From: a virus
IMG/VR virus record: IMGVR_UViG_3300017598_001817
Location: 1-25,379 of that record
DNA length: 25,379 nt
Direction: 5' to 3' (one strand)
Shown: positions 2,508 to 25,259 of the stretch, piece after piece
How positions within the stretch are numbered: the first letter of the stretch is position 1
Layout of the letters: every line of letters begins with the position of its first letter
Position numbers and translations under genes: made by a program
Notes under the pieces: model-generated
Databases searched by the model: none
What the model was told of the DNA's origin: nothing
The model's input: the letters and a program-made list of their open reading frames with translations, nothing else

Positions 2508-2514
2508 TCGTCCC

Positions 2515-3313: not shown

Positions 3314-3359
3314 TTATTCACGCATTCCATGAACTGTGAACATCCCAATGTACTGGACA

Positions 3360-9177: not shown

Positions 9178-9371
9178 TAGAAGTCTCCTATGTACCTACC
9201 GTAGCGGTTCTTTAAAAAGTCTTTACTCTCCTCGTATTTTGTTTTCCCGCGAGTCAACAACGATTGAAACTCACCACCCGGCATCTTATTGAACCGAGCA
9301 AATCTGTTCTGAGTTTTGTTTCGAAACGGGTCATTCCAGAACTTATTCTTTTCTAACCTTTCAAAATTCAT
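9177..9371 (-). CDS. Small basic hypothetical protein
   Basis: This 64-aa protein starts with ATG at 9371 (MNFERLEKNKF), which overlaps the tailspike stop as ATGA. A TTG 24 bases upstream is also in frame but less likely. The protein is rich in Lys, Arg, Asn and Phe (NKFWNDPFRNKTQNRFARF, SKDFLKNRYGRY), basic overall, with no TM and no cysteines. There is no clear Shine-Dalgarno sequence at the ATG, so translation probably depends on coupling to the tailspike gene. The function is unknown. A basic miniprotein between a tailspike and ejection proteins might bind DNA in the virion, but nothing in the sequence proves this. Confidence 0.65.
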   Translation of the reverse strand: MNFERLEKNKFWNDPFRNKTQNRFARFNKMPGGEFQSLLTRGKTKYEESKDFLKNRYGRYIGDF

Positions 9372-11933: not shown

Positions 11934-13493
11934 CTAATTAACACTCCTGGCAGTCTCGTACCAGTTCGTGCCATCACATACTAAAGTTATAGTGTCGTCA
12001 GCCGTTGTGACAAGATTCCCGGCCAACTTTAAATTACTGCCATCCGTAAACGTCAATATCCCGGCAAACTTTAACGCCACTTCCCTACCTGACCATGAGG
12101 CCGTAACAGAAGTGATGTTTGTGGTGCCAGTGATATTGAAGAAATCACCAGACGGATTTAATGTAACGGTTGCCGCCGATGCAATATCGGCTGAATCCTC
12201 CGTTAGATTAAGGGAGGCGATTGTGTCTGTCCCGTAAACCGTCAGGGACGTTGTGAACCCGGTACTAATTCTGTTATTTTTAATAATCCCAGTTGCACTT
12301 GGTGTCAATGACTCAATACCATCATCTACCTCTACAGTGCTTTTCAACGTATTCCCGGTGATGATAAAGTCCACTCCCTTTATTTGTATACCCTTAACCG
12401 AGGATGTCCTTGTCCCGATGTCCTGGATATTATTATTGGATATAATTGCCCGGTTAGCAAACACGTTTATGCCATAACCACCGATACTAAGAAGAGTGTT
12501 ACCGTCAATTGTTATACCATCAATGAGGGTCTGGTCTGTGGCAGATACCGTTATCCCCTCACTCGATGAAGATGCGACCTCAGAAACCACGTTCCCAACT
12601 ATCGTTACGTTTTTAATTGGAGTGCCACCCCCACCAACAATACCACCCGCATCACTTCCACGAACAACATTATTCACAATAGAAACAGCCTCAATGTCGG
12701 TTTCAAACTTAATCCCCTGATGTGTACCATCTTTTATGATGTTACCAGAGACAACCACATCCCTCACCCCGCTTGATAAGAAAATATCAGCAGTTGTCGC
12801 CCCAGTCCCGTTGGAATCGAATTTATTATCCACCACCTGTATTCTACTTGCATTTGTTGTCGGGGAATTTCCTCCGATATAAAGCCCGTTTGCGGCACCG
12901 GAGTCCTTTATGTAACAATTCTCTACCCAGCAGTCCGTCGGACTATTCAGCATGTAAATGGCGTTTGAAAAACAATCTGTTATGAAGAGATTCTGTAATT
13001 TAACGAACGATGAGGCGGATACTCTTACAGCACCACCGCCCGTACTTCCGGCCTTATTCCCATTGAAATGCCCACCGATTATCTCAACCTGAGTCTTGGT
13101 GTCGATATTAAATATCCAGTTATTAATCGCGTCCTTAGCGTATAATTGCCCATCTATCACGATTACGAGATAAGACGGCACTTCTATTTTTGTGACAACA
13201 TACGTTCCGGTGGGAATAATCACACGACCTAGGTTATTGTCCGATCCTGCGGCGGCAGTAAACGCCGCCTGAATCGCCTTAGTGTCATCCGTTGAGCCAT
13301 CTCCCGTTGCGCCGTATTTCCTCACATCAACCCACGGGACACGGGATAACCGAAGGATGTTAAAATCAGAAATTCGGGACGCGGCCTCCTCTTGATGTTC
13401 GGCATAATGCTTCTGTATATATTCGTAGACTCCATCAAAATCTTCTGGCTTCTCGCCCATGTAGTACCAATCTCGAAGTCTATCTAATGCCAT
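11934..13493 (-). CDS. Second tailspike-like protein, pectate-lyase-fold beta-helix
   Basis: This 519-aa protein has an N-terminal head (MALDRLRDWYYMGEKPEDFD and a helix to about 48) that is probably its virion anchor. VPWVDVRKYGATGDGSTDDTKAIQ (52-75) then marks the start of the Pectate_lyase_3-type beta-helix. The body has repeated VxGNxI/VxNNxI rungs (VVSGNIIKDGTHQG, ITGNTLKST, IISNNNIQDI). The end (about 470-519, TITLVCDGTNWYETARSVN) is a short beta-rich cap seen in many phage spikes. It is likely a receptor-binding or depolymerase protein, and no active-site residues can be pointed to. The anchor differs from that of the 604-aa spike, so the two may attach at different sites or one may branch from the other. 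Confidence 0.9.
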   Translation of the reverse strand: MALDRLRDWYYMGEKPEDFDGVYEYIQKHYAEHQEEAASRISDFNILRLSRVPWVDVRKYGATGDGSTDDTKAIQAAFTAAAGSDNNLGRVIIPTGTYVVTKIEVPSYLVIVIDGQLYAKDAINNWIFNIDTKTQVEIIGGHFNGNKAGSTGGGAVRVSASSFVKLQNLFITDCFSNAIYMLNSPTDCWVENCYIKDSGAANGLYIGGNSPTTNASRIQVVDNKFDSNGTGATTADIFLSSGVRDVVVSGNIIKDGTHQGIKFETDIEAVSIVNNVVRGSDAGGIVGGGGTPIKNVTIVGNVVSEVASSSSEGITVSATDQTLIDGITIDGNTLLSIGGYGINVFANRAIISNNNIQDIGTRTSSVKGIQIKGVDFIITGNTLKSTVEVDDGIESLTPSATGIIKNNRISTGFTTSLTVYGTDTIASLNLTEDSADIASAATVTLNPSGDFFNITGTTNITSVTASWSGREVALKFAGILTFTDGSNLKLAGNLVTTADDTITLVCDGTNWYETARSVN

Positions 13494-14368
13494 TATGCTA
13501 TCTCGAAATAATCCCCTAGAAGCTGATAGTCAATCTCCATTGCCGACCACTGTAGAATGTCCGTCGTAGTGTTGTTCTGAATGTAAAACTGTAGGATATG
13601 CCCAGTTGTTATGAAATAAAACTCCTTAACCTTCGTTAATCCGCTTGCCGTTCCGGTCAGGTTGCCACCAGCAGTCTCCCACGTTGCCCCGTCAGCACTC
13701 ACGCCTATGGTAACAGCCGTACTTGTGTAAATGTCTGAGAACCACAACCTGACCCGTGCCACGTATTTGAACTTATCCAACGCTTCCGGGTCTTGGTCTG
13801 CGAGGTCGCTTAGTTTAGATAACCAATAACAATTTATCGGATTGGGGTCGCCATTCCCATCAACTCCATCGTATGTATAGGTTTCGGCCTCAAGGTAAAG
13901 ATTCCCCTCATAGTCACCAAAATAGTAATGGAAGTCAGGCTCAAGCGGGACGGTTACTACGGTCTTCCCGGTGTCTGACAGATAAACCGTGTCCCCGCCA
14001 GTCTGTATGTAACTGGCGATAGCGGTTCCCCCAGAAGTGAGGGTGACGGTATCGTTGTCAGTATACATATACATGGTGATGGCATCTGCCGCAACATAAT
14101 CAGACCAACTTCCAGCATCACTTAGCCGTTGTCGTATACGCCATGTCCAAGAAGTGTTTTCTGTTATTCCAACTATCTTGTCAGATGTCGGATAATTATA
14201 CGTATCAAGAACCGAGTATGCCCCACCTGTGCTATATGATAATTCCGCCTCATTATCAGTATTTCTGAATCTCCCTGGAATACCGTTCCAATCCCATGTT
14301 ATCTCGACAGTCGGATAAGTATAGTTGAGATTTGCTACAACTGTTAGGGCGTCGGGTTCATAAGCCAT
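13493..14368 (-). CDS. Beta-rich neck/tail protein next to the hub
   Basis: This 291-aa, all-beta protein is rich in Thr, Tyr, Asp and Trp. Residues 8-105 look like a fibronectin-III-type sandwich (VVANLNYTYPTVEITWDW, WTWRIRQRLSDAGSWSDYV). The C-terminal half (about 195-291) forms a second sandwich (VARVRLWFSD, ITTGHILQFYIQNNTTTD). It has TGATG-type overlap with the hub gene upstream and TAATG overlap with the tailspike gene downstream, so it may link the neck to the spike. No family can be named with certainty. A tail accessory or fibre-adaptor role is inferred from position between the hub and the spike. Confidence 0.8.
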   Translation of the reverse strand: MAYEPDALTVVANLNYTYPTVEITWDWNGIPGRFRNTDNEAELSYSTGGAYSVLDTYNYPTSDKIVGITENTSWTWRIRQRLSDAGSWSDYVAADAITMYMYTDNDTVTLTSGGTAIASYIQTGGDTVYLSDTGKTVVTVPLEPDFHYYFGDYEGNLYLEAETYTYDGVDGNGDPNPINCYWLSKLSDLADQDPEALDKFKYVARVRLWFSDIYTSTAVTIGVSADGATWETAGGNLTGTASGLTKVKEFYFITTGHILQFYIQNNTTTDILQWSAMEIDYQLLGDYFEIA

Positions 14369-15684
14369 CAGAGACTAGCCCCCTTGCCGCCACAAGACAT
14401 TACATCTGCATACTCGTTCACCGTCCACTCGTTATAGATGTAATCAAAACAGAACATCCACCTGTTATTATCCTTGTCCGTCGTTATCCACCTCACCTCG
14501 TTCTCAAGTTCATGGTGATAACCCACGACCCTCTTAACCTCCGTGGGGTTCACTATCTCAAAAAACTTATCCCTAACTTTCCCACCGATACTTTGCGGTC
14601 TATCACCGTTAATCATATAGAAATCACGCCGCCCGACAAAGAAATTGGTATCGTGGGCGTGAACAATAGAATAAGGTGCGGGCGTACCTATCCCCTTCCT
14701 TTGCCTCGGGAAGTGAATCGGATCGCCAGGATCACCAGTCTTATTCGCAATAACAAGAGAGTCCTGTTTATAGACGATAAGATTCTCACCTACTTTCCCC
14801 AATCCTGTTATGAAATCATCCGTATCAGTTAAGTCGTTTGACCCGGCATCGGAACTTGTCCAATCAGTAGGGTCGCCATTGGCTGACCACTTTACCGTGT
14901 AAAGTTGTCTTGAACCACTAATATATAGGTCTGCAAGCACTAATCTATCGGCGTACTCTATGCAGTACCGCGCCTTTGTAGCGTCTGTAGAGTCTAATGT
15001 GGAGGCGTGTCCCGTGCCGTCATACACCTGTACGTTTGTGTCCCCGTTCGTGAAGTAAAGTTTATCGAGAACCTGACACGATGACCACCTCTCATTATCA
15101 GGAACAGTGTACTTTTTGATAATGGTGTAGTCCGCCGCCGCTACCTCATTTTGACCATACGTATCGACAAGTTCCAGAGCGAGATCACTTGTTATAGAAT
15201 CAATCTCTCTCCAATCAGAGTTTGGTTCAGCATCAGCATCATAATCGGCATCGAGAATTAACCAATCACCAGACTCCGGTTGGTTGTCCGCAGAAGTGTC
15301 CCATGCTGTGGTCGTTCCGGCGATGGTCTTATCTACAGTACCCCCAACCGCCTCATCTACATTCGCCGTCCCAGTGGTATATTCCTCGTTTATATACTCC
15401 CACGTATTCGGTTCTGCATGAATCTTGATAGCATCGGTGTCAGTAAGAACAACCGTTGCCGCCGTACCCCCACTGTATATCATCCATATGATATTGAGTA
15501 TTTCCACATTCGTACCGAGGTCGCGATACTTCGCATACCCACGCCGCTTCTTGATACTGCGTTGCTCAACCTTGAAATTCAATGCACCCCAAGTCGAGTT
15601 CTCAAACGGTTGGTTCAATGACGGTATAGACAGGTCCGCCCCATGCTGAAGCGGACGTATCATGTACTTCCGATAATCAGCCAT
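14368..15684 (-). CDS. Head-tail hub / nozzle protein (P22 gp10-like beta-propeller)
   Basis: This 438-aa protein resembles packaged-DNA stabilisation and nozzle proteins. These assemble below the adaptor as a six-fold ring that closes the head and carries tailspikes. Propeller-like phrases are visible: LDKLYFTNGDTNVQVYDG (206-223), ADRLVLADLYISGSRQLY (245-262), GENLIVYKQDSLVIANKTG (299-317), PIHFPRQRKGIGTPAPYS (322-339) and FFVGRRDFYMINGDRP (348-363). The last resembles the 'G.y.ldG' blade of gp10. Residues about 103-190 look like an inserted Thr/Asp-rich beta-domain (GTVDKTIAGTTTAWDTS). It follows the adaptor genes and precedes the spike genes, as expected for the hub. The assignment to the gp10/gp12 class is by pattern and synteny. 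Confidence 0.8.
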   Translation of the reverse strand: MADYRKYMIRPLQHGADLSIPSLNQPFENSTWGALNFKVEQRSIKKRRGYAKYRDLGTNVEILNIIWMIYSGGTAATVVLTDTDAIKIHAEPNTWEYINEEYTTGTANVDEAVGGTVDKTIAGTTTAWDTSADNQPESGDWLILDADYDADAEPNSDWREIDSITSDLALELVDTYGQNEVAAADYTIIKKYTVPDNERWSSCQVLDKLYFTNGDTNVQVYDGTGHASTLDSTDATKARYCIEYADRLVLADLYISGSRQLYTVKWSANGDPTDWTSSDAGSNDLTDTDDFITGLGKVGENLIVYKQDSLVIANKTGDPGDPIHFPRQRKGIGTPAPYSIVHAHDTNFFVGRRDFYMINGDRPQSIGGKVRDKFFEIVNPTEVKRVVGYHHELENEVRWITTDKDNNRWMFCFDYIYNEWTVNEYADVMSCGGKGASL

Positions 15685-16052
15685 TACGAGACAGTTATTG
15701 TGTATGTGTACTTATAGGTTGAGTCCGCAACCATTGAGACCGATGCACTCAACACTGTGCGGGCCAACATAGTACCGTCTGACGAGGCATTAAATAACCC
15801 CACCTCCTTCAGGGTTTCTGAACCCGTCGCCGTCCATGTGTAGTCGATGCTCAACACGGCCGCCGCCTCGGTTGGTGACGCATCCTGCGCCCTCGCAAGA
15901 CCGTTCCCAGTTATGGCACTCACAAGTGCTGTCTGACCGACCGCAAACGCAGTATCACTATCCCCCAATTCCAAATAATCAAAGTCTGCCACGGCGGTCG
16001 TGCCGCCAATCATCTGAGCTACCGCCCGCTTCCCGGCAGTTGTCACGCCCAT
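15684..16052 (-). CDS. Small beta-sandwich virion protein
   Basis: This 122-aa protein contains FDYLELGDSDTAFAVGQTAL (24-43). It has alternating beta-strands and a strand-rich end (TLKEVGLFNASSDGTMLARTVLS, TYKYTYTITVS). The xxFxYxxLGxS element and the final TxTI strand are common in small phage tail or neck proteins, but the family name is not known to me. Its ATG overlaps the stop of the upstream 46-aa gene (TAATG), preceded by GAGGAGGGTGAA. Its position between adaptor and hub suggests a neck or stopper-like role. The fold type is more certain than the function. Confidence 0.75.
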   Translation of the reverse strand: MGVTTAGKRAVAQMIGGTTAVADFDYLELGDSDTAFAVGQTALVSAITGNGLARAQDASPTEAAAVLSIDYTWTATGSETLKEVGLFNASSDGTMLARTVLSASVSMVADSTYKYTYTITVS

Positions 16053-16192
16053 TATTCACCCTCCTCAAAAAACTCTTCCTTCTCATCATAGTGTACGCCG
16101 TCACTTGTCTCTTTCCACGATAACCGCCACACCACCTTACCGTCCTCTAACTTCTCTAATTTATGCCCCTCAGTCAATCCAAATCCACTCAA
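16052..16192 (-). CDS. 46-aa acidic miniprotein with TTG start
   Basis: This short gene fills the gap between the adaptor and the 122-aa protein. It starts with TTG at 16192, overlapping the adaptor stop TGA as TTGA. GGAGGAG lies six bases before the start. It reads MSGFGLTEGHKLEKLEDGKV and continues with VVWRLSWKETSDGVHYDEKEEFFEEGE, stopping in TAA that overlaps the next ATG. The exact fit to both neighbours and the strong ribosome site make it credible despite its length. The protein is acidic at its C-terminus, with a possible beta-hairpin (KVVWRLSWKE). The function is unknown. Confidence 0.65.
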   Translation of the reverse strand: MSGFGLTEGHKLEKLEDGKVVWRLSWKETSDGVHYDEKEEFFEEGE

Positions 16193-16872
16193 TAGCGACT
16201 CCTCCGCATTGTGCTGGGATGTAACCCACGCCTTGCCCCCTCTTTCTCCTGACTCTCAAGACCGATTATCCCCTCTACTATATCTATAAAGGCTTCCTTA
16301 CACTTCTCGGACCTTTCGTACTCTCCAAGCCATCTGTGTAGTTTGTGTGCGGCCAACTCAAGTATCGGCTCATCCCATATCTCACTGACATCCGTAGTGT
16401 CCGTACCCGTCATATCATCGGGGATGTCTCTATAATCTATCTCGAGTTCGTATGCGTCGTCAGGCGTGGGATTGAGATAAATCTTAGTACCACTTCTAAG
16501 CCACATGGACGGCTTGCCTTCCTCGTCCGTATCGGAGCGGTTTGTCCGCTTAGTGAACTCACGGCGACTCAGAAACTTATTCAGCCACCTATCGTTTGTA
16601 GAGTCATACACGTCTTGGATAATAAGGGTGCCAGTCGGCGTGGTGACGTAATTCACGCCATCCGTTGTTGATTGGGTCGTGTCGGTGGCATCAAGAGTCG
16701 GAAACGTGAACTTATGCTTTAGTTCCCAAAAGCGATTCTTCGTGACGACTTCCTTATAGGCCTTATTAATAACTATCCCATATAGATTTACGTCCTCAAC
16801 GCTTTCAAGGTCCGTCCTTCGATGGAATCGTATCTTCAAATACGTTTTAAAATCATCAAACCCGTAAGCCAT
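16189..16872 (-). CDS. Head-tail adaptor protein (P22 gp4 / T7 gp11-like)
   Basis: This 227-aa protein has the pattern of phage adaptor/connector proteins. An N-terminal helical part (residues 3-50, DDFKTYLKIRFHRRTDLESV, VINKAYKEVVTKNRFWELK) leads to a central beta region (WLNKFLSRREFTKR, GKPSMWLRSGTKIYLNPTP). It then has YELEIDYRDIPDDM and a C-terminal helical bundle with LAAHKLHRWLGEYERSEKC and AFIDIVEGIIGLES. The run 'GTKIYLNPTPDDAYELEIDYRDIP' corresponds to the family element 'i.l.P.Pd..y.l.v.Yr..p'. Such proteins form a 12-mer ring under the portal and receive the hub. AAGAGGGAGTA before the ATG supports the start. It is placed directly after the co-chaperonin and before the hub, in agreement. 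Confidence 0.78.
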   Translation of the reverse strand: MAYGFDDFKTYLKIRFHRRTDLESVEDVNLYGIVINKAYKEVVTKNRFWELKHKFTFPTLDATDTTQSTTDGVNYVTTPTGTLIIQDVYDSTNDRWLNKFLSRREFTKRTNRSDTDEEGKPSMWLRSGTKIYLNPTPDDAYELEIDYRDIPDDMTGTDTTDVSEIWDEPILELAAHKLHRWLGEYERSEKCKEAFIDIVEGIIGLESQEKEGARRGLHPSTMRRSRY

Positions 16873-17255
16873 TACTCCCTCTTATGTGCCTCTAGTAATT
16901 CCTGAACCTCTTCTTTTAGAAGTTTATTCCCAGCCTCATTAAACCAATCGGGGTTAATCTGCATGGTGTCCGGTATCGGATACCCGAGGACCGTACCCAA
17001 CCCCTCTTCCTCCGACATCATACGGTGACGCTCATCCCTCATGTCTAACTGCATCAAGTGAAGTACCGTCCCGGTGTAGTAACTCATAAGAATCCTATCT
17101 CCCGGTTCGTACCGAGTCACCTTGTCTCCAGTGGCAATAACCGTACCTATCCGAGTCTGCTCCTTGTGCTTTTCGGGCAGAATAATCATTCCCTTGTAAT
17201 CCAGAAACCCGTCCAATACTACGTAAAGATTGTGCATCTGTGGTTTGATAATCAT
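16872..17255 (-). CDS. GroES-like co-chaperonin (Cpn10 fold)
   Basis: This 127-aa protein aligns by eye with Cpn10. It has IIKPQMHNLYVVLDG (2-16, GroES IRPLxDRVIVK), KGMIILPEKHKEQTRIGTVI (21-40, GGIVLxxxxxxKxxxGxVxAVG), ATGDKVTRYEPGDRILMSYY (41-60, GDxVxF) and TGTVLHL (61-67). Hydrophobic IIL (24-26) matches the IVL tripeptide by which the GroES mobile loop binds GroEL, though the loop is short. Residues about 85-90 (GLGTVL) may be the last strand. A helical tail (104-127) extends beyond the usual about 95 residues. Such phage proteins (T4 gp31 is the classic case) lead the host GroEL to fold capsid protein. AAAGGAGAAAAA before the ATG gives strong initiation. It overlaps the adaptor gene. 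Fold assignment is good; partnership with host GroEL is inference. Confidence 0.82.
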   Translation of the reverse strand: MIIKPQMHNLYVVLDGFLDYKGMIILPEKHKEQTRIGTVIATGDKVTRYEPGDRILMSYYTGTVLHLMQLDMRDERHRMMSEEEGLGTVLGYPIPDTMQINPDWFNEAGNKLLKEEVQELLEAHKRE

Positions 17256-17273: not shown

Positions 17274-17783
17274 CTAATTAAGGTCATCAACCCCCCGGTC
17301 TTCCTCCGTTATGTCTATCTCGGCGTCCCTCTCTTCCCGCTTCCTAGACACGTAATTGTAATGCTCGATACAATACTTCTTGCCCTTGTATACGGCGATT
17401 GCCCACTCCGGGTACAGCCTGCCATACACCTTCTCGCTCCCGACAGAAGCCGTGGTCATCATGTCAGCACCGCCTGTACTACCGGCGATTGTCTCATCAG
17501 CCTCGAATGACTCCCTGTCAGAAATTCCGGTACAGGCATCCATCTCAACAGTACCCTCGGCGTCACCACCAGCGAATGTACCCTTATGTAGGGTGTGGGT
17601 CACAACAACCCCTGTAGCACCAGAAGTGCCCCCGGTCAATGTCTCGTCCTCCGTGGGTTCTACGGACCCAGAATCGAACCAGAACTCAACCCTACTGTGC
17701 TTTCCGCCGCAAAGGGTACACGAGTAATACTTCGCATCTTCCGCGATGCGGTCTTTTTTAAGGTTCTGCTTTACACTTATCAT
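17274..17783 (-). CDS. Hypothetical protein: zinc site split by a beta-rich insertion
   Basis: This 169-aa protein is read from ATG 17783, which overlaps the previous stop (TGATG); GTG 17786 is equally possible. An N-terminal knuckle C22xxC25GGKH29 and a C-terminal C138IEH141 together could form one zinc site. Between them, about residues 46-117, lies a Gly/Thr/Ser-rich beta segment (DETLTGGTSGATGVVV, KGTFAGGDAEGTVEM, DETIAGSTGGAD). It has two related DETx(T/A)G elements, the style of an adhesin-like insertion in virion proteins. The C-terminus is charged (RKREERDAEIDITEEDRG). The gene lies just before the co-chaperonin and is probably a virion component. No family is recognised. Confidence 0.78.
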   Translation of the reverse strand: MISVKQNLKKDRIAEDAKYYSCTLCGGKHSRVEFWFDSGSVEPTEDETLTGGTSGATGVVVTHTLHKGTFAGGDAEGTVEMDACTGISDRESFEADETIAGSTGGADMMTTASVGSEKVYGRLYPEWAIAVYKGKKYCIEHYNYVSRKREERDAEIDITEEDRGVDDLN

Positions 17784-18340
17784 CACCCGGCTTGTGTACG
17801 AGCATGGTACACATACACAGTACCACCGTCAAGAGTTTCAAGACTTAGGTTCTCTATTCTCAGCGGAGGCGTGAAATCAAGGTGAACAGGTGACGCATCA
17901 GACGCACCAGCCTTCATAACGATTGCGGGATAGGTGTAGTAGGTTTCCCACGAATAGACCTTATCCGCCTCGTTAGTCCAACTATCGTCTTCGTGATGCA
18001 CCGTACAGTCGTCATCATCCCCGGCAGTTTCGACAACATGACTGTCAAGGTTTGCCGCCGCACCAGACGAGTGCGTAATCTTGATTACATGCCCGTCGGC
18101 TACCGTCGCCGGGACATTCCCAGTAGATGTCATAATACTATTGCTGGTAATTGTTCCGGTTTTCCCAGTTTTTGATGCCGCCGTTATGGGGCTGTTCTCG
18201 TCCCATGTCTTGAATAGCACATCATCGTCAGCCGCACTTGGGATAAAAAGCACCTTCTTGATATAATGAACCCCCGGACGACAGGCACCAGCCGTATCCA
18301 ATACCCATAAAAGGGGCGTACTCGTGAAATCATTACTCAT
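17783..18340 (-). CDS. Hypothetical beta-rich virion protein
   Basis: This 185-aa protein is rich in Asp, Thr, Ser and Ala, with beta-strand alternation throughout. Visible stretches include VHYIKKVLFIPSAADDDVLF (24-43), ITSNSIMTSTGNVPATVADG and PPLRIENLSLETLDGGTVYV near the C-terminus. It has an acidic cluster (GDDDDCTVHHEDDS). No motif for catalysis is present and no family is recognised. Strong initiation is likely, with CGGAGGATTAG just before the ATG. A capsid- or tail-surface role is suggested by its neighbours (a carbohydrate-binding-module-like protein upstream and the split zinc protein downstream). Confidence 0.75.
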   Translation of the reverse strand: MSNDFTSTPLLWVLDTAGACRPGVHYIKKVLFIPSAADDDVLFKTWDENSPITAASKTGKTGTITSNSIMTSTGNVPATVADGHVIKITHSSGAAANLDSHVVETAGDDDDCTVHHEDDSWTNEADKVYSWETYYTYPAIVMKAGASDASPVHLDFTPPLRIENLSLETLDGGTVYVYHARTQAG

Positions 18341-18367
18341 CTAATCCTCCGTTAAGTCAAACTCATA

Positions 18368-18862
18368 TTAATCTAATGTCATTTCGGTGGTCATGTGTAG
18401 TTCCCCACCAACGGTGAACGTCTTCCTCAGAACAACTGTATCAAAATATGCGGTGTTATTGGCTTCCCCGCTATACAGTACTACATATACAGATCCAGTG
18501 CCCGGCAGGCCTGTTGTCGTAAATGTTGTGCTATATCTGGTCCATGCCGCGTCAGTGATGTTTCCGGATGTATAATATGACGATGGCGAAATTGCATGGT
18601 GAGCACCAACCATTATGCGTCCATAGGCAGCAGAACCCTTCTTAAAATAACAACTGAACTCATATAGTGCAGGAACCGTACATGAAATCTGCTGAAAGAT
18701 ATATCTACCGAGGGTGCCGTCACAAGCCACCATCGCACAATTACCACTCTGGCCAGACCCCTCTGTAGTCCCAGTAGCACCAGTACCCTCTGTCCAACCA
18801 GTCGGTGGGTCAACGTCGGATGTGAAATTCGGATTTGTAACTAAGTTGCTTTCGTATGCCAT
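18368..18862 (-). CDS. CBM-like jelly-roll protein
   Basis: This 164-aa protein begins ESNLVTNPNFTSDVDPPTGW (4-23). This matches the start of carbohydrate-binding modules of the CBM4/9 type and related galactose-binding folds ('NLltNpgFesg...gW'). Further family-like elements follow: YIFQQISCTVPALYEFSCYF (54-73), AWTRYSTTFTTTG and AYFDTVVLRK near the end. The whole protein is one domain with no enzyme part and no obvious anchor. It may bind glycans on the virion surface. AGGGGAACT before the ATG supports the start. It follows the LamG gene with 7 bases of spacing, giving two predicted glycan-binding proteins in a row. Confidence 0.8.
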   Translation of the reverse strand: MAYESNLVTNPNFTSDVDPPTGWTEGTGATGTTEGSGQSGNCAMVACDGTLGRYIFQQISCTVPALYEFSCYFKKGSAAYGRIMVGAHHAISPSSYYTSGNITDAAWTRYSTTFTTTGLPGTGSVYVVLYSGEANNTAYFDTVVLRKTFTVGGELHMTTEMTLD

Positions 18863-18869
18863 AGTTCCC

Positions 18870-20258
18870 CTAGTTCATACTCATCGACATGAACATATGT
18901 ACTTGATCGCCGTAATTGGCAGTACCCAAGCCAACCACCCCCACAGGGAAGGTCATCACTAAACTAAACACCGCAGGGGTTATCGTCACGTTCTCATTGT
19001 ATACTGGCTCAAGTTGTGCCCCAGTAACCAGATACGACCCTGTGGTACAGCTAATCTTTCTATTGTAAAGTGGATTTAGGTTTGCCCCGGTAATCGCGTA
19101 TGTGCCAGTCGTGCAAATCGCCTTCCTATTGAAATAGGCATTGAGGGTCTTCCCGGTTACGGCGTATGTCCCCGTAGTACACTCTATCGTGTAGGTTGCA
19201 CCAACCCCAGTCTCGGCACCCCATGTCAACTCATAGTCCGCATTAACGGACGAGTCCATGTTATTGTACTCGAACTTGATGTGGTTGGCTGATAGGGCCG
19301 AGGTTCGGTAACGAACTTCTTCCATATGCCCATTAAAGGCGTTATTCCCGAGGCCATCACCTTGACACCCAATGCCAAGGACTGCGGAAGATGTTACGGT
19401 AAGCCCACCACCAAAATCATGGTCATTAGAGTCAACCACTGAATCTGCATACCCAAGAACAACGCCAGCCGCATCTACCGTGCCGTGGAACAGGTACCAA
19501 GTGTCGGCATCTGTAAACCCGTCCGTCCTAGCGTCACCAACGGAGCCATCTTCATACACGTTAAAGTCAAGATATTCGTTCGGATCAGAACCAGCCGCTA
19601 GACAGGTAAACCCTTCGGTGGTACCCCCGGCACCTTCATTAGAGCTAAAGCGGTGAAAGGAATATTCAGGAACGCCCCACGTATCCCATGCAAGCCATGT
19701 CTGTAACGAAAACGTGTCTTGGTCAAGTGCCGCCGTGTCTGAAACTAATACACCATCATTTGTACCGTCGAACTCCATCGCATAGCGAACTCTACCAGCC
19801 GCCTGATAGTCACTAATTGACTCAGAGGAAGAGTCGTGGTTCCCCGTGGCATCCGTCACCGTACCAGAAGCGTCCGCCATGTGCCACACGCCCACATAAT
19901 CAGACCATGTGTTCGCCTTGTCCTCCCCGTCTGAGTCCGCCGCCTTCCCGTAATAAATCCGTATGTTATTCTGGTCGTCACTTACCGAAGCGTACAATGC
20001 CGGACACTTCACATAGAACGTAGCGTTACAGTCCCCGGCAGTTACATCAAAGTAAACCCTATCGTAGTAAAGGATAGCGTCTGTGGTCACATCATAGAAG
20101 CGTATGTCGTGTCCATTGGTGTCGTCTACTACATTCCCGCCAATATCAGAATCGTCAACAATCTGGATGAGGGTACAAACATTAGTCAGATTACCATCAA
20201 TATTGGCGTCCTGAACGTCAATGTCCTTGTAGTAACTGTACCCGGAAGGTTCCGCCAT
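18870..20258 (-). CDS. DUF2341 + LamG-like protein with C-terminal repeats
   Basis: This 462-aa protein has three parts. Residues about 8-118 match DUF2341 (YSYYKDIDVQDAN, NGHDIRFYDVTTDAILYY, NNIRIYYGKA). Residues about 119-345 match a concanavalin A/LamG-type jelly roll (YVGVWHMADASGTVTDATGN, AMEFDGTNDGVLV, FSLQTWLAW, EEVRYRTSALSANHIKFEY). Residues 358-423 are three tandem 22-residue repeats, with a degenerate fourth after them. The C-terminus ends MFMSMSMN. DUF2341 and LamG often occur together in surface proteins and phage virion proteins. A glycan- or surface-binding role is likely. It lies between capsid and neck genes, so a head or neck decoration is possible. The ribosome site is weak. 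Confidence 0.88.
   Translation of the reverse strand: MAEPSGYSYYKDIDVQDANIDGNLTNVCTLIQIVDDSDIGGNVVDDTNGHDIRFYDVTTDAILYYDRVYFDVTAGDCNATFYVKCPALYASVSDDQNNIRIYYGKAADSDGEDKANTWSDYVGVWHMADASGTVTDATGNHDSSSESISDYQAAGRVRYAMEFDGTNDGVLVSDTAALDQDTFSLQTWLAWDTWGVPEYSFHRFSSNEGAGGTTEGFTCLAAGSDPNEYLDFNVYEDGSVGDARTDGFTDADTWYLFHGTVDAAGVVLGYADSVVDSNDHDFGGGLTVTSSAVLGIGCQGDGLGNNAFNGHMEEVRYRTSALSANHIKFEYNNMDSSVNADYELTWGAETGVGATYTIECTTGTYAVTGKTLNAYFNRKAICTTGTYAITGANLNPLYNRKISCTTGSYLVTGAQLEPVYNENVTITPAVFSLVMTFPVGVVGLGTANYGDQVHMFMSMSMN
18990..19187 (-). repeat. Three tandem 66-bp (22-aa) coding repeats
   Basis: Units lie at 19187-19122, 19121-19056 and 19055-18990 on the minus strand, in frame in the LamG protein (residues 358-379, 380-401, 402-423). 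Each unit begins with two variable residues, then CTTG(T/S)Y, then (A/L)(V/I)TG, a Leu and an aromatic-Asn near the end (YFNRK, LYNRK, VYNEN). A fourth, degenerate unit follows (VTITPAVFSLVM). One Cys per unit is conserved in the first three. Confidence 0.85.
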
Positions 20259-20259
20259 T

Positions 20260-20721
20260 TTACGCCGTAGTAATCAACTCCAGTTCAAAATCAACCCCAG
20301 TATGCTTGACTAAATAAAGCCTCCACGAATCGTCACTCCATAGCACATCAACCAATGCGGTCCTTGTGTCTGGGTTAAGGCTACCCGCCCTGATGATATA
20401 ACTCTTGACATTCGTGCCAACATACCCATCAAGGAACTCTTTTAGTAACCGTTCAGGTGTAGTCTCCCTCGGTGCCAAGTGTTCACTTACGGGCCATTTC
20501 GCAGTCTCCGTAGGCAGTCCCTCATCAAATACCCAAAATGAGTATGTATTATCCGTTATGCAATCCGGCCTATTGTCCACAATCGCTCGTACCGTATAGT
20601 ACCTCAACTCCTCATATGCAGAGGTGTACCCGGTAGTCAGGTCTATCGTCTGTGCCAATACAGGGTCTTTCATAACAAGAACCCTACTCTCCAGTATCGC
20701 CAGTAATTCAGTTTTTGTCAT
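20260..20721 (-). CDS. Hypothetical protein
   Basis: This 153-aa alpha/beta protein begins TKTELLAILESRVLVMKDPV (2-21). It contains EELRYYTVRAIVDNRPDC (37-54), SFWVFDEGLPTETAKWPVSE (61-80) and a C-terminal part, ALVDVLWSDDSWRLYLVKHT (121-140), that looks beta-stranded. No known motif is seen. Good initiation is provided by TTGGGGGAAAC before the ATG. It overlaps the zinc-ribbon miniprotein gene by 14 bases and precedes the LamG gene by one base. A chaperone or assembly factor for the LamG protein, or a minor virion component, are both possible. Confidence 0.78.
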   Translation of the reverse strand: MTKTELLAILESRVLVMKDPVLAQTIDLTTGYTSAYEELRYYTVRAIVDNRPDCITDNTYSFWVFDEGLPTETAKWPVSEHLAPRETTPERLLKEFLDGYVGTNVKSYIIRAGSLNPDTRTALVDVLWSDDSWRLYLVKHTGVDFELELITTA

Positions 20722-20884
20722 GTTTCCCCCAAGTAATTTCGGGCTTCGGCTCCACCCTGGCGAAATACCTGCCCGTTGCGGCCTTTAAACGATAGTGATT
20801 CCTTCCGCAATCTATACACACTTCCGCCGATAACGTAGGGTGCGGCTTCCTGAATAAACACTCGCAGTCTTTCTCCATTTTCAT
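20708..20884 (-). CDS. 58-aa zinc-ribbon miniprotein
   Basis: This gene fills the 170-base gap between two longer genes. It starts with ATG 20884 (MKMEKDCECLFRKPHPT), preceded by GTGAGGAAGAC. It has cysteines C7, C9 (CEC) and C23, C26 (CIDCGRNHY), a plausible CxC/CxxC zinc site. A basic region follows (YRLKAATGRYFARVEPK). The stop TGA lies inside the next gene, giving a 14-bp overlap. The four-cysteine pattern, a proper ribosome site and the tight fit make it a real gene. It may be a nucleic-acid- or protein-binding zinc module. Confidence 0.72.
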   Translation of the reverse strand: MKMEKDCECLFRKPHPTLSAEVCIDCGRNHYRLKAATGRYFARVEPKPEITWGKHDKN

Positions 20885-20891
20885 GTCTTCC

Positions 20892-21302
20892 TCACGCCAA
20901 TGTCATTACCGCGTTATCCACAAAATCTATAACGAATGTCTCCCCGTCAGCCATCGTCACCGCAGACCCATAATCCCACCAACACATCAAAGCGTCTGAG
21001 GCGTGAGTGTCGTTGTAAATCACAACATACTGGAACGGCCCGACAGAACCAGTTGCGGTAATTGTTACATCTGTTGCGGACATCGTTCCAGTACCGGACG
21101 CTTCTGCCCATGTATTCTGGATGTCTGCCGCCGCGTACCCATTCTCCTCAGTGGCCCCAACCAAATCACCCTTATCATCGTCAGCAGACGCAGACGGGGC
21201 ATTATTTGTCACATAGACGTTAAACGTGTCTGAATCAAGGTGATGGTCGCCAAGACCCAATATCTGCACAAACGATTCAAACTTATTGTAGGCAACTGCC
21301 AT
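20892..21302 (-). CDS. Beta-rich virion protein, paralogue of the adjacent upstream gene
   Basis: This 136-aa protein shares its layout with the gene at 21314-21742. An N-terminal helix (AVAYNKFESFVQILGLGDHH) leads to a strand with DTFNVYVTNNAP (24-35), a loop with ENGYAAADI, TMSATDVTITATGSVGPFQY (73-92), YVVIYNDT and a final ETFVIDFVDNAVMTL. In the partner the matching parts are NSFKKHLMNGG, DTIQCALVTSDY, GAGYTADGAEI, AIIWKDTG and TTFTISWSAEGILNL. Such small proteins often occur near capsid genes in phages and are thought to be virion components. GATGGAGGAATAA before the ATG gives strong initiation. The exact role is unknown. Confidence 0.82.
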   Translation of the reverse strand: MAVAYNKFESFVQILGLGDHHLDSDTFNVYVTNNAPSASADDDKGDLVGATEENGYAAADIQNTWAEASGTGTMSATDVTITATGSVGPFQYVVIYNDTHASDALMCWWDYGSAVTMADGETFVIDFVDNAVMTLA

Positions 21303-21313
21303 TTATTCCTCCA

Positions 21314-21742
21314 TCACGGGTCGTTAAGATTTAATATACCTTCCGCCGACCACGATATGGTAAAAGTCGTTCCGGTAGTAGACTTGTTCTCGCCGAAGTC
21401 GTGATACCGTATTAACGGCGAAGTCGCATCCGTTCCCGTGTCCTTCCATATTATTGCCGCCCTTGCGGTTATCGTTGCCGTAGTCCATGCAACATCATCG
21501 CCGTCAAAGACACCCTCATTGTCCGTGTCGTCCTGGGTTACGGTCTTATTCGTTATCTCCGCGCCATCGGCTGTGTACCCAGCACCAACCACCTCGTTTG
21601 TTATGTCATCGAAATATTCGTGTGTATCCTGGTTGGGTGTATAATCACTCGTTACAAGGGCACACTGAATCGTGTCTGTGTCTAAATCAATCCCACCATT
21701 CATTAGGTGTTTTTTGAAACTGTTGTACGTTAGGCTCGCCAT
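21314..21742 (-). CDS. Beta-rich virion protein, first of a paralogous pair
   Basis: This 142-aa protein has a helix (LTYNSFKKHLMNGGIDL, 3-19), DTDTIQCALVTSDYTPNQDT (20-39), GAGYTADGAEITNKTVTQDD and VAWTTATITARAAIIWKDTG. It ends SPLIRYHDFGENKSTTGTTF then TISWSAEGILNL. It parallels the next gene along its whole length, so the two are likely an old tandem duplication. The ATG overlaps the upstream stop (TAATG). A capsid- or neck-associated structural role is inferred from this family's usual context beside head genes. Confidence 0.82.
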   Translation of the reverse strand: MASLTYNSFKKHLMNGGIDLDTDTIQCALVTSDYTPNQDTHEYFDDITNEVVGAGYTADGAEITNKTVTQDDTDNEGVFDGDDVAWTTATITARAAIIWKDTGTDATSPLIRYHDFGENKSTTGTTFTISWSAEGILNLNDP

Positions 21743-21975
21743 TAGAATATTTGTCTAAATGATTTAATCCATATTAAAAGTCGCCTGAAAAACTTCAGTC
21801 GCGGCTCGTGCGGCGCTATTACATAAAGTCCAGCCTGTTCAGAGAATATCCTAAAGAGGGAATCCAGCGCACTCTCGAACTCCCTACGTGCAACTATGAC
21901 CTGCTCAATAGTTCTGGCCCTCTTGATGGCCCGTAACGTCAGGCGCATCTCCTCAAACCAGTATTCTTTCTTCAT
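21742..21975 (-). CDS. Small helical hypothetical protein
   Basis: This 77-aa protein is predicted to be helical and basic: EEMRLTLRAIKRARTIEQVI (8-27), VARREFESALDSLFRIFSEQ (28-47) and a last helix, PRLKFFRRLLIWIKSFRQIF (58-77). The last is amphipathic and may touch a membrane or a protein groove. GAGGAGAAA precedes the ATG, and the start overlaps the preceding stop (ATGA). No family is recognised. Confidence 0.72.
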   Translation of the reverse strand: MKKEYWFEEMRLTLRAIKRARTIEQVIVARREFESALDSLFRIFSEQAGLYVIAPHEPRLKFFRRLLIWIKSFRQIF

Positions 21976-22127
21976 TTTCTCCTCTTTGTGAACTTAGTGC
22001 GGCGTATTTTCATTTCCTTCACATGGGCCTGAGCCGCCCTATCGTATCCCTCAGTGAGTTTATATCTCAACCCAGCCTTTTTCCTGGCCCTGGCAGTCGT
22101 AACTATACCAGCCATCTTCTTAGCCAT
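21972..22127 (-). CDS. 51-aa very basic miniprotein
   Basis: This short gene starts with ATG 22127, with TTAGGAGTGAAC upstream. It reads MAKKMAGIVTTARARKKAGL and continues with RYKLTEGYDRAAQAHVKEMKIRRTKFTKRRK. About one third of residues are Lys or Arg, and acidic residues are scarce. Its stop overlaps the next start as ATGA. It is likely a nucleic-acid-binding or RNA-binding protein, or a small packaged basic protein. The function is unknown. Confidence 0.68.
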   Translation of the reverse strand: MAKKMAGIVTTARARKKAGLRYKLTEGYDRAAQAHVKEMKIRRTKFTKRRK

Positions 22128-22157
22128 GTTCACTCCTAACTAAATAATCGGTGGACA

Positions 22158-22364
22158 CTACTTAACTCTGTTTACGTCAACTGTCCTTAAAAACTTAGCC
22201 GCCCTACTCCCGTGTTTCTCATTTAGCTTTCTCTCTAAATATTTACACTTATCCAATTGAACGTCCGTCATCCCGCCGTGACCGCCCCACTCTTTCCTCA
22301 CTATTTCAACTTGTTGAGAACGAGTTTCCCCAGTCCTGTCTTTCGGGATAATTACATTAGCCAT
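22158..22364 (-). CDS. Small hypothetical protein
   Basis: This 68-aa protein begins MANVIIPKDRTGETRSQQVE. It has a helical second half (MTDVQLDKCKYLERKLNEKH, then GSRAAKFLRTVDVNRVK), is charged, and has no TM. The ATG overlaps the stop of the upstream 56-aa gene (TAATG), and only GGTGG is a candidate ribosome site, so coupling is likely. No family is recognised. It stands in a row of four small charged genes (21742-22534) between the DnaJ-type zinc protein and the paralogous pair. Confidence 0.7.
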   Translation of the reverse strand: MANVIIPKDRTGETRSQQVEIVRKEWGGHGGMTDVQLDKCKYLERKLNEKHGSRAAKFLRTVDVNRVK

Positions 22365-22534
22365 TATCGGCCACCATCCAATTTCTCAAACCTCTTATCA
22401 AATTCCCTCTCGTTGATTTTCCCATCCTTCAAGTCCTTGAAAATTTTTTTTGCCTCTTTCGGGATGTCTACCCCGGCCTTTTCAAGCCCCTTTCTCAACT
22501 CCCTAGATTCGGCCTGTGTTTTTGTTTTTGCCAC
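22364..22534 (-). CDS. 56-aa charged miniprotein with GTG start
   Basis: This gene is seen in the gap before the 68-aa gene. GTG 22534 is preceded by TAGGAGAATAAG (AGGAG six bases upstream). It reads MAKTKTQAESRELRKGLEKA, continues GVDIPKEAKKIFKDLKDGKI, and ends NEREFDKRFEKLDGGR. It is almost entirely helical and rich in Lys and Glu. The stop TAA overlaps the next ATG. The pattern 'KxIFKDLKDGKIxExEFDKRFEKL' has the look of a short helix-turn-helix hairpin, without calcium-binding residues. Function unknown. Confidence 0.68.
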   Translation of the reverse strand: MAKTKTQAESRELRKGLEKAGVDIPKEAKKIFKDLKDGKINEREFDKRFEKLDGGR

Positions 22535-22535
22535 C

Positions 22536-22901
22536 TTATTCTCCTAATAGTGTTAAAATATTTGCTCTCGTCGTAGACTGGGCATCAAAAAGCACCCAAA
22601 GCGTGGCGCGAATCAACGTGCCATCGGTCATGTCGATAACCCCCATTCCGATTATGTCCCTGTAGTTTTGCTTATTGGCATCAGATAGTGCCTGATATTC
22701 AGCAGGAACCGTGTTCTCTACTATCTCATAAGTCTGTATTAATTTCTTTCCGGCATCATCAGCCCAACGGACCTCACCAACAAATGTCTCCGTGTCACCG
22801 TCACAATGCGGACAATTGTAATCTGGGTTCTGCCCCCCTCCGACAGTCCCGCTTCCGCCACAATGACCGCATTGCCGATATAAATACATTACATCAGACA
22901 T
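22536..22901 (-). CDS. DnaJ-type zinc-finger protein
   Basis: This 121-aa protein is read from ATG 22901, with TTGGAGGTAAAT upstream. An upstream in-frame ATG at 22946 would run through the hairpin and is rejected. Residues 11-16 (CGHCGG) and 30-35 (CPHCDG) form the CxxCxG(S)G...CxxCxGD pattern of the DnaJ cysteine-rich zinc finger, here one repeat pair (C11, C14, C30, C33). The rest has a beta-strand (FVGEVRWADD) and helices (DANKQNYRDIIGMGVIDM, STTRANILTLLGE). A single DnaJ-like zinc module could bind unfolded protein or nucleic acid. It could act with the co-chaperonin downstream, but this is inference. Phages often have small proteins of this type near head genes. Confidence 0.82.
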   Translation of the reverse strand: MSDVMYLYRQCGHCGGSGTVGGGQNPDYNCPHCDGDTETFVGEVRWADDAGKKLIQTYEIVENTVPAEYQALSDANKQNYRDIIGMGVIDMTDGTLIRATLWVLFDAQSTTRANILTLLGE

Positions 22902-22921
22902 ATTTACCTCCAAGTGGGTGA

Positions 22922-22939
22922 GGGGGGCCGAAGCCCCCC
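22922..22939 (-). other. Stable intergenic RNA hairpin with cUUCGg tetraloop
   Basis: On the minus strand a 7-bp stem GGGGGGC/GCCCCCC closes a TTCG loop with a C-G closing pair, the exceptionally stable UUCG tetraloop. It sits in the 49-base gap between the beta-helix gene and the DnaJ-type gene. No run of T follows the stem, so it is not a classic intrinsic terminator. A run of six T precedes it. It may protect or mark a processed mRNA end, or reduce transcription past the head genes. Confidence 0.85.
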
Positions 22940-22950
22940 ATCCCAAAAAA

Positions 22951-23883
22951 TCAAGTGGCGTAATCTATCGAGTAGTTTCCAGCAGTCGTAAGTCCGTTAG
23001 CAGTAACAAGGCTTCCAATACTCGCACTATCATCGCCAAAAATATTCCCAGCAATCACACCAGTGGCGGCAGTAGCAACCGAGATGTACACGTTCGTCCC
23101 ACCAGTTGGTAGCATGTTCGCAAATACGTTGTGATGGATATTGATAAAATCGCAATCCGCAATAGTGATGTTTGCGCTACACTGAGCCGCAGTAGCCAAC
23201 CACTGGCAATTCCCAATCTCGATTCCGTCAGGCACCTGTTCGCTAGAACCAACGGTAATCCCGGCACCCTTATGGAACGTACAATCAAGAATCGTAGCCC
23301 ACATAACACTCTGAATAGTCAATGAGGTATTGCCACCAAAACGAAACATACAATTGGATATGGTGTTTCCACACGCATACCCATCACCAGCACCAGTCTG
23401 TAAGCCATCTAGAGCTACACAAACATTAGAGGTGCTTGCGCCATCGTGAAACGAAAGATTCTCCATTAGCGTCCAGGGTGCATCAACATCAAATGCTGGG
23501 GTGGCCGTAGCCGTCCCGGTTCCGCGCATATAGGTATAAAACTGTCCGCCCTGGCCCCTTCCATAACCAGTTCCGATTATAGCAAGGCCATGTAATGTGT
23601 ATGGAATATCCCAATTCGTAGTGCTTTCTGGGATTATGTAATGGGGGTCATAGTTCATGGTATTCGGCGTTCTTGGCCTAACATAAATTACATCATTGGC
23701 CGATGCTCCGTCAATGACATCCTGTAGATGCTTCGCGGCGTCTGCAATACTTTTGCCAGTCCCGCCAGTAGTCCCATTGTCGTAATCGACAAACCAAGTC
23801 TTTTCGCCCCACATTCCAAGATAGGGGTTCCCGCTAACGGGTGCCCCTCCCATGTGAAATAACCTATCAGGTGATGTACTCAT
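22951..23883 (-). CDS. Right-handed beta-helix protein with tailspike-like N-terminal tag
   Basis: This 310-aa protein has the tag MSTSPDRLFHMGGAPV (1-16), closely matching the N-terminus of the 604-aa tailspike. A segment with GEKTWFVDYDNGTTGGTGKS (26-45) follows, similar to the start of many secreted beta-helix proteins ('WFVDYDNG..G.GkS..dA'). The body has rungs such as NTISNCMFRFGGNTS, WATILDCTFHKGAGI and ITIADCDFINIHHNVFANML. No catalytic motif is visible. AAGGAGGTGAGAT precedes the ATG. It stands directly after the major capsid gene, away from the tailspikes. A head-attached fibre or decoration spike is thus possible. The UUCG hairpin follows its stop. Confidence 0.85.
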   Translation of the reverse strand: MSTSPDRLFHMGGAPVSGNPYLGMWGEKTWFVDYDNGTTGGTGKSIADAAKHLQDVIDGASANDVIYVRPRTPNTMNYDPHYIIPESTTNWDIPYTLHGLAIIGTGYGRGQGGQFYTYMRGTGTATATPAFDVDAPWTLMENLSFHDGASTSNVCVALDGLQTGAGDGYACGNTISNCMFRFGGNTSLTIQSVMWATILDCTFHKGAGITVGSSEQVPDGIEIGNCQWLATAAQCSANITIADCDFINIHHNVFANMLPTGGTNVYISVATAATGVIAGNIFGDDSASIGSLVTANGLTTAGNYSIDYAT

Positions 23884-23898
23884 ATCTCACCTCCTTAC

Positions 23899-24825
23899 TC
23901 AAGTATTGCCACAAAAATAAAGCCTCGGGTCTCCAAATCCATAATCGAAGAACTGCACAGACGTTACCACCGTGTCTCGGGTGTCGTCATCCGCGCCCTT
24001 AACAACTAAATCAGGCTCCATTGCGGTCAAACAATTGATGTCAAACCTGTCGTCGTTCTTTGCCAGTCCAAACCAAGAGGTCGTACTGGTCAAACGAGTT
24101 CCAGGCATAACGAACTTAATCTTCTCGGCCACATTGTCGGTGTTCGAGAACTCATGCGCCTTGCCATCACTCCTGTAAATCTCTTTCGCGGTCCACTTCA
24201 ACTTCGGGTGGAACACTAGAGTGTCACAACTTGCATTGAAAAACTGACCCATTGCGTCAACGAGAGTATCAAAGTAATACTCCATATCCTCAACGGCGGC
24301 AACGGAAAGTGCGGCGTCAAGGTAGTTGTCGTAGTTGTCGCCAGTACCATCAGCCAACCCGGTATGGGTGTTTTCGGCCAAGTCGAGGCCGTCAAAACCA
24401 GTACCAGAAGTCGAACTAACAGAAGTCGGGCCATTGTAAAGCCTAAACAACTCCTTATCCTTCGCGTCTTTCTGCGCCCTTGCTAGAGACTGGGTCCACT
24501 TTTTAACAAGACCATACTTGTTAAACTTTTTCATCCGCAGAGTTACGCGGAATCCAGAACCAAACTGTCTCTGTTCGTAGTCCTTAGCGTCACCGAATTT
24601 CGGGGACTGTAAGGGGATGTTCTGCCCCTCAGTCATTTCCTGCGCCAAGCCTAGACCGGCGATCTCACGATCCCTTTCCCACTCATCCTTCGTAGTAGAG
24701 GTCTTGTAGACATCCTGATAAAAAGTGGTGGTCTTGCGCTCGGTAGTATCATGTACCTTTCGCAGAAACTTCTTAAACATCTCTCCATCGGTGGAGTCAT
24801 CCCAATATCTTGTTACTGTAGCCAT
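23899..24825 (-). CDS. Major capsid protein
   Basis: This 308-aa protein forms the capsid shell and is expected to have the HK97-type fold. Family-like features are an N-terminal helical arm (MFKKFLRKVHDTTERKTTTF), a strand with SGFRVTLRMKKFNKYGLVKK, a long spine helix (about 105-130), NYLDAALSVAAVEDMEYYFD (164-183) and CDTLVFHPKLKWTAKEIY. The C-terminal part carries INCLTAMEPDLVVKG and VTSVQFFDYGFGDPRLYFCGN (near 288-307), an ending typical of phage capsid proteins. No pro-domain or protease site is evident. It lies between a decoration-type gene and the beta-helix protein. The ATG overlaps the decoration stop (TAATG), so both should be made together. Confidence 0.88.
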   Translation of the reverse strand: MATVTRYWDDSTDGEMFKKFLRKVHDTTERKTTTFYQDVYKTSTTKDEWERDREIAGLGLAQEMTEGQNIPLQSPKFGDAKDYEQRQFGSGFRVTLRMKKFNKYGLVKKWTQSLARAQKDAKDKELFRLYNGPTSVSSTSGTGFDGLDLAENTHTGLADGTGDNYDNYLDAALSVAAVEDMEYYFDTLVDAMGQFFNASCDTLVFHPKLKWTAKEIYRSDGKAHEFSNTDNVAEKIKFVMPGTRLTSTTSWFGLAKNDDRFDINCLTAMEPDLVVKGADDDTRDTVVTSVQFFDYGFGDPRLYFCGNT

Positions 24826-25259
24826 TATCTTATTCCAACGATGCTGGTTTCTAAGAACCGAACAATTAATCTACCACTAGCCACCGCGCCGTCACGTGGA
24901 TCAAGTTTAACGCACTCAACGTCAGTCGTGGCACCACTCTCGTCAACAGTATGGGCACCAGCGGTATACGTAAAGTCTAACGTGTCGCCAATCAACGCTT
25001 CGGACGTAGCATCCGTGTGGTATTTTACAACATACAAATTACTAGATGAAATCAACTCAACGGGTATCTTCGTACCCGCCGTTCCTGTAGCCGCTCGTTT
25101 CGCAATCCCCCAATTATTGTCTGTAGTGGCGATAACTAATTCGCCATTGGAGTCAGTCTGTACGAGGTCGCCCGCATAAAAATCATTTGCGGAACCGGCG
25201 GCGGCTTCTTCTGCCTCGGTTATCTGCGGATTTCCAGCAATCCTTTCTACACTAGCCAA
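24825..25259 (-). CDS. Capsid decoration-type protein with TTG start
   Basis: This 144-aa beta-rich protein has an N-terminal motif with AGSANDFYAGDLVQTDSNGE (21-40) and NNWGIAKRAATGTAGTKIPV (48-67). It also has TSEALIGDTLDFTYTAGAHT (84-103) and a C-terminal GRLIVRFLETSIVG. The pattern 'AGdlV...sgg.v..a....ig.Ala...agt.i.V' is common in small head decoration or fibre proteins lying beside the capsid gene. The start is TTG, supported by ACGGAGGATAAT with ideal spacing and by the absence of any ATG nearby. Coupling to the capsid gene by TAATG overlap supports joint expression. The decoration role is inferred. Confidence 0.8.
   Translation of the reverse strand: MASVERIAGNPQITEAEEAAAGSANDFYAGDLVQTDSNGELVIATTDNNWGIAKRAATGTAGTKIPVELISSSNLYVVKYHTDATSEALIGDTLDFTYTAGAHTVDESGATTDVECVKLDPRDGAVASGRLIVRFLETSIVGIR

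Follow-up and report, generated by a model that had tools for sequence, protein, structure and literature searches.

The interval between the genes for the major capsid protein (MCP) and the portal-tail adaptor of an uncultured short-tailed, podovirus-like phage holds a block of adhesin-type genes that is likely to specify an adhesin module on the virion. We describe this block in the 25,379-base IMG/VR record IMGVR_UViG_3300017598_001817 (the window), a phage genome fragment in which the minus strand carries every gene from 25259 down to 390. From the MCP gene towards the adaptor, the adhesin-rich interval of ~7 kb encodes the beta-helix protein BH310, small proteins, two phrog_644 proteins, p153, LamG462, CBM164, p185, p170 and a GroES-like protein (Table 1). 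A sequence-only reading of this DNA had proposed an adhesin block between the capsid and adaptor genes at 17274-24825, a range that takes in the MCP gene itself, and Pfam families, phrog families and structure models confirm that block. We read it as a set of modular phage adsorption proteins, as such already known, in an unusual gene position.

Our explanation has two parts, and as a whole we consider it somewhat better than an even bet. The first part comprises LamG462, CBM164, p142 and p136b, i.e. lectin-type adhesins and two phrog_644 proteins with a predicted tail-arm fold, which would form an adhesin module of the neck or tail, a placement we think reasonably probable. The phrog_644 proteins would probably hold the adhesins to the neck or short tail, in the adaptor region; the particle would bind cell-surface or extracellular glycans first, and the tailspike BH519 would then engage its receptor. 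The second part is BH310, a putative lineage-wide beta-helix appendage that would dock via an unstructured N-terminal peptide to a site made of conserved virion gene products, whether of the capsid or of the neck.

The p142 model is a confident beta-sandwich (predicted local distance difference test, pLDDT, 94.9). It resembles the tail wing arm of phage Bxb1 (9d93_Ra) both in structure (Foldseek rank 1, TMt 0.80; VIA Z 11.3, root-mean-square deviation 1.7 A over 99 residues) and in sequence (phmmer E 6e-4, profile E 1e-4); a common fold with 9d93_Ra was found for p142 only. Further VIA matches include T4 and KP1 baseplate chains (Z 13) and the HFTV1 tail (Z 8), followed by weaker ones (Z from 5) to A511 gp105, a phi812 arm segment, the phiKZ baseplate and the Bas63 connector. 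A match of p142 to Muc_B2 (E 0.005, below the cut-off) was set aside as weak. The second family member, p136b, is 63% identical to a protein of the related contig L005 and 34% identical to Pam1_09 of the Pam1 tail gene cluster. Elsewhere, phrog_644 proteins are found in that tail cluster and in the minor-tail cluster of Onyinye.

The association of phrog_644 with lectin-type domains extends beyond the window. Among 26 viral contig records fetched by similarity to p142, 10 carry a LamG domain above the cut-off (10-12 overall), and in seven it lies at most 1.1 kb from the p142 homologue. LamG is not common background: among 30 arbitrary IMG/VR records, only two have it. DUF2341 was found in one of the 26 and is therefore not a general partner of phrog_644. 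In unrelated phages, a phrog_644 gene often directly precedes a LamG adhesin, in a gene order typical of the neck or tail tip. The pair follows the tape measure and Dit genes in L078 (tail-tip order), stands between probable adaptor and nozzle genes in L048, L050, L051, L052 and L060 (neck order), and lies between MCP and a probable adaptor in L053 (neck order), where the adaptors and nozzles of the L050-type and L053 records were recognized by size, order and the look of the sequence rather than by family match. In the lineage of L048, L050, L051, L052 and L060, which is unrelated to the window, the adhesin that follows phrog_644 has differing N-terminal heads and a common stretch of the last ~150 residues (up to 75% identity).

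A similar exchange is seen in LamG462. Its DUF2341 domain (E 3e-6, 28.2 bits against a curated cut-off of 23.4) and its Laminin_G_3 domain at 19275-19769 (E 2e-12, 41.7 bits against 27.6) are followed by 22-residue repeats at residues 363, 385 and 407. The repeats and terminus are 43-44% identical to those of a 514-amino-acid L005 protein with a different N-terminal part, and the DUF2341/LamG part is 30-32% identical to L014 and L018 proteins that have no repeats. Adhesin domains are thus swapped between relatives while one protein end stays constant. CBM164 can be called only CBM-like, because its PF02018 match of 22.8 bits lies below the curated cut-off of 25.9. A short C-terminal tail (..HM....M..) common to LamG462 and CBM164 was spotted by eye and is too short to claim as a shared element. 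The sequence-only reading had named the same ingredients: its beta-helix and DUF2341+LamG proteins stand, its carbohydrate-binding jelly roll is weakened as just described, and of its several beta-sandwich proteins, p142 has a confident model and p136b belongs to the same family, leaving p153, p185 and p170 without assignment.

Relatives of the window were obtained by an MCP alignment search of viral contigs, which gave 24 contigs at 39-51% identity, including the already known L005; single-sequence searches of viral contigs with MCP, p438 or BH310 gave no relative or one locus. The contigs reach 52 kb. Where both ends could be measured by coordinates, the MCP-adaptor interval ranges from ~3 kb (L020) to ~11 kb (L014). 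The genes for BH, p68, p185, p170 and GroES recur as a core and the remainder varies, so that the comparison across relatives proposed with the sequence-only reading does reveal exchange of block content (LamG, S74 fibre, papain plus lectin, beta-helix, CBM). LamG occurs in the interval of L014 and L018, an S74 chaperone fibre in L010, a large beta-helix in L006, and a beta-helix with CBM_4_9 in L024. The L014 interval also encodes a 915-amino-acid protein (17737-20484) that combines a beta-helix with papain-like cysteine protease and Lectin_like domains and may be a surface protease carried by the virion. Glycosyltransferase-like genes, whose products may modify virion proteins, lie in the interval of L005 (9086-10371), L018 (8274-8903) and L015 (3840-4481), the L015 gene being recognized solely from its similarity to the L005 protein.

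The second part of the explanation concerns BH310. Its AlphaFold2 model (pLDDT 76.6, with a low-confidence N-terminus) resembles beta-helix polysaccharide lyases and tailspikes at VIA Z 20-23 and supports the fold, for which the Pfam match lies below the curated cut-off; phmmer against the PDB returned mainly chance hits such as antibody light chains, which were discarded. Of the contigs, 21 continue beyond MCP, and in 18 of these the next large gene codes for a beta-helix protein that opens with M[ST]xxPDxLxxxGGxPV; in this count L010-L012 and L016/L026 are near-duplicates, and L023 has an intervening 224-amino-acid gene. This 16-residue N-terminal motif is conserved in 18 relative loci and predicted to be unstructured; 16 sequences of the family were aligned. 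Scanned relatives with this protein have a single copy of the peptide each, always in the post-MCP protein, and the window holds two, in BH310 and BH604; a scan match in L028/G009 is not a post-MCP beta-helix. BH604 thereby opens with the same peptide as BH310, and a second copy was seen in no scanned relative. By its model BH310 has the right-handed beta-helix of a tailspike, and the N-terminal anchor of the lineage's canonical tailspike was not found on it, as anchors of the BH519 type differ. The location of BH310 is about evenly split between the head and the neck or tail, and a head appendage is plausible. A more far-reaching proposal is that the beta-helix proteins encoded after MCP throughout this lineage of uncultured short-tailed phages form a family of spikes, with BH310 as its first member, that dock to the capsid or its vertices by the conserved peptide and vary in their bodies; the phage of the window would display two such proteins, BH310 and BH604, from one site. 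We regard this as tentative and rather improbable.

Predicted RNA hairpins further divide the block. In the window a strong hairpin follows BH310, and all other block genes lie past it; the LamG and CBM genes are therefore outside the MCP segment. Most relatives have strong hairpins on either side of the BH gene, one of them separating it from MCP, and BH310 or its homologue is grouped with MCP without an intervening hairpin in the window, L005 and L006. The observed hairpin energies were reached by five of 460 dinucleotide shuffles. We infer that expression may be lowered stepwise from MCP to the adhesins, which makes a capsid-wide copy number of LamG462 and CBM164 less likely.

Table 1. Features of the window in order from the MCP end, with coordinates, strand and supporting evidence
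Feature	Coordinates	Strand	Evidence
p144, putative capsid decoration/cement protein, TTG start	24825..25259	-	function proposed from position alone
MCP, 308 aa	23899..24825	-	Pfam Phage_capsid_4 E 2.2e-9; phrog_1650
BH310, right-handed beta-helix protein directly after MCP	22951..23883	-	AlphaFold2 model; Pfam Beta_helix E 3e-4, below curated cut-off
BH310 N-terminal peptide MSTSPDRLFHMGGAPVS, proposed docking peptide	23833..23883	-	conserved motif, low pLDDT
Strong RNA hairpin between BH310 and remaining block	22916..22944	-	-22.9 kcal/mol
p121, small protein with CxxC	22536..22901	-	weak phrog matches only
p68, small conserved core protein after BH gene	22158..22364	-	34-57% identity in relatives
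p77	21742..21975	-	open reading frame only
p142, phrog_644 tail-arm-fold protein	21314..21742	-	phrog_644 E 1.4e-45
p136b, second phrog_644 protein	20892..21302	-	phrog_644 E 5e-10
p153, small protein before LamG gene	20260..20721	-	no family match
LamG462, DUF2341 + LamG lectin-like domain + C-terminal 22-residue repeats	18870..20258	-	Pfam domains
CBM164, CBM_4_9-like jelly roll	18368..18862	-	PF02018 E 1.2e-4
p185, lineage-specific conserved core protein of interval	17783..18340	-	homologues in relatives
p170, Cys/His protein with TSGATG beta module, conserved core	17274..17783	-	alignment
GroES-like co-chaperonin gene	16872..17255	-	Cpn10 E 3e-5; phrog_3188 E 2e-7
Portal-tail adaptor	16189..16872	-	SU10_adaptor E 7e-16
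p122, small protein with weak similarity to podophage GP4 fiber I	15684..16052	-	PF23140 E 0.003, below cut-off
p438, probable tail nozzle/hub	14368..15684	-	phrog_3287 E 6e-39; nozzle role proposed
p291, tail-module protein	13493..14368	-	30-39% identity at same position in relatives
BH519 tailspike	11934..13493	-	tail spike phrogs, Beta_helix
BH604, tailspike-like beta-helix in tail module	9368..11182	-	tail spike phrogs; BH310-type N-terminal peptide motif

The sequence-only reading had the proteins decorate the capsid or neck, and these two sites fare differently: the neck fits best, whereas for most of the block the tail matches of phrog_644, the order in which it is paired with LamG and the hairpin speak against the capsid. 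Display on the capsid, with BH310, LamG462 and CBM164 decorating the head and binding glycans with it, is in our view unlikely. It would suit genes that directly follow MCP, the recurrence of BH310 after MCP in 18/21 contigs and the lack of a hairpin between the two in the window and L005, and phage phiCbK offers a precedent, its phrog_644 protein gp75 lying beside gp76, a proposed head-filament lectin protein. Yet nearly all fold matches of p142 are tail parts, the phrog_644-LamG pair takes tail or neck gene order in unrelated phages, LamG and CBM are behind the hairpin, and the MCP-BH hairpins of most relatives argue against a capsid-like copy number. Only slightly less doubtful is a reading that puts BH310 and BH604 on the tail or neck as a pair of beta-helix spikes, both docked at one site via the same peptide, and none of the block's products on the capsid. 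One peptide does begin both BH310 and the tailspike-like BH604, and BH310 resembles tailspikes and polysaccharide lyases (Pam1 tailspike Z 21.7), but the protein at the canonical tailspike position, BH519, bears another anchor, one common to relatives, and in scanned relatives the peptide is confined to the post-MCP protein. This reading is a sub-case compatible with our two-part explanation, and their probabilities overlap. That the interval is merely an unconstrained insertion site whose beta-rich products stay outside the virion seems very improbable: its content and size vary strongly and some relatives have glycosyltransferases in it, but adhesin-type domains recur, C-terminal ends stay constant while heads are swapped, and the BH/p68/p185/p170/GroES core is conserved and co-oriented with the structural genes.

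Several points weigh against the two-part adsorption module itself. Gene order is a weak guide to where a protein sits in the virion, and the lineage is known here from genes alone. The one-sided Fisher p for the LamG counts (0.005 to 0.0008) is only a guide, because the records were chosen by p142 similarity and some are related (L048-L052 and L060 are one lineage). A phrog_644 gene is by itself no proof of a tail site, because the family is head-proximal in phiCbK, where gp75 adjoins the proposed head-filament protein gp76 with its ConA-like lectin domain, and lies directly after MCP in the satellite MiniFlayer. Finally, a BH310 homologue is absent from the post-MCP place in L019, L022 and L027.

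The tail module lies close by. By gene order the block is indeed not with the tailspikes, as the sequence-only reading had it, but the distance to the start of BH519, in the same run of genes, is only ~4-5 kb. The N-terminal anchor of BH519 is unlike that of BH310 and is conserved in relatives' tail modules. In favour of the adsorption module, L006 and L014 lack a full tailspike and have just a stub of ~200 amino acids, yet their interval adhesins measure 1263 and 915 amino acids, respectively. No relation of p122 to phrog_644 as one family was detectable (hhalign probability 0.2%). Homologues of p144 lie directly upstream of MCP in most relatives (27-39% identity). Identity of p185 is 26-35% in L008, L018, L020 and L023, and L022 and L024 have short forms of 93-94 amino acids; p170 keeps C-x2-C ... 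C-x2-H in all seven aligned sequences. The GroES-like gene adjoins the adaptor and is conserved in several relatives, and vir526, a Methanomicrobiales-associated virus with an MCP 28% identical, likewise has one. In L006, 21 tRNA genes are arrayed ahead of the head genes (2045-5049), the sole case among scanned relatives. A host search turned up no prophage in genome contigs, and searches with BH310, LamG462 and p185 gave no match in isolated phages.

These results predict that phrog_644, a phage family without known function, serves as an arm carrying exchangeable lectin-type adhesins. They also point to the MCP-adaptor interval as an adhesin exchange site in the window's lineage, and the brief N-terminal motif conserved in BH310 proteins may serve as a modular tag for docking to the virion.

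Among known systems, Bxb1 tail wing arm gp31 (PDB 9D93; PMC13148394) has a fold and detectable sequence similarity in common with p142, but Bxb1 is a siphophage with its wing at the tail tip, whereas p142 belongs to a podovirus-like phage and is encoded between MCP and the adaptor. Kuravirus SU10 has the same adaptor family, with one gene number between MCP gp9 and adaptor gp11 (PMC9509320) as against the ~7 kb adhesin-rich interval here. In phiCbK, gp75 is 53% identical to p142 and immediately precedes the lectin-domain adhesin gp76 in head-proximal order (L031, 9001-17891); gp76, a 2799-amino-acid protein undetected in virions (PMC3556154), has no giant equivalent in the window. There gp75 could be the head-filament mount, and filament attachment becomes testable in a culturable phage. 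MiniFlayer has a comparable gene order, with MCP, phrog_644, a small gene, a large protein (1376 amino acids, annotated hypothetical), a tail fiber and the adaptor; the satellite's fibres bind the neck of its helper phage, and its authors propose an adsorption module (PMC10690885).

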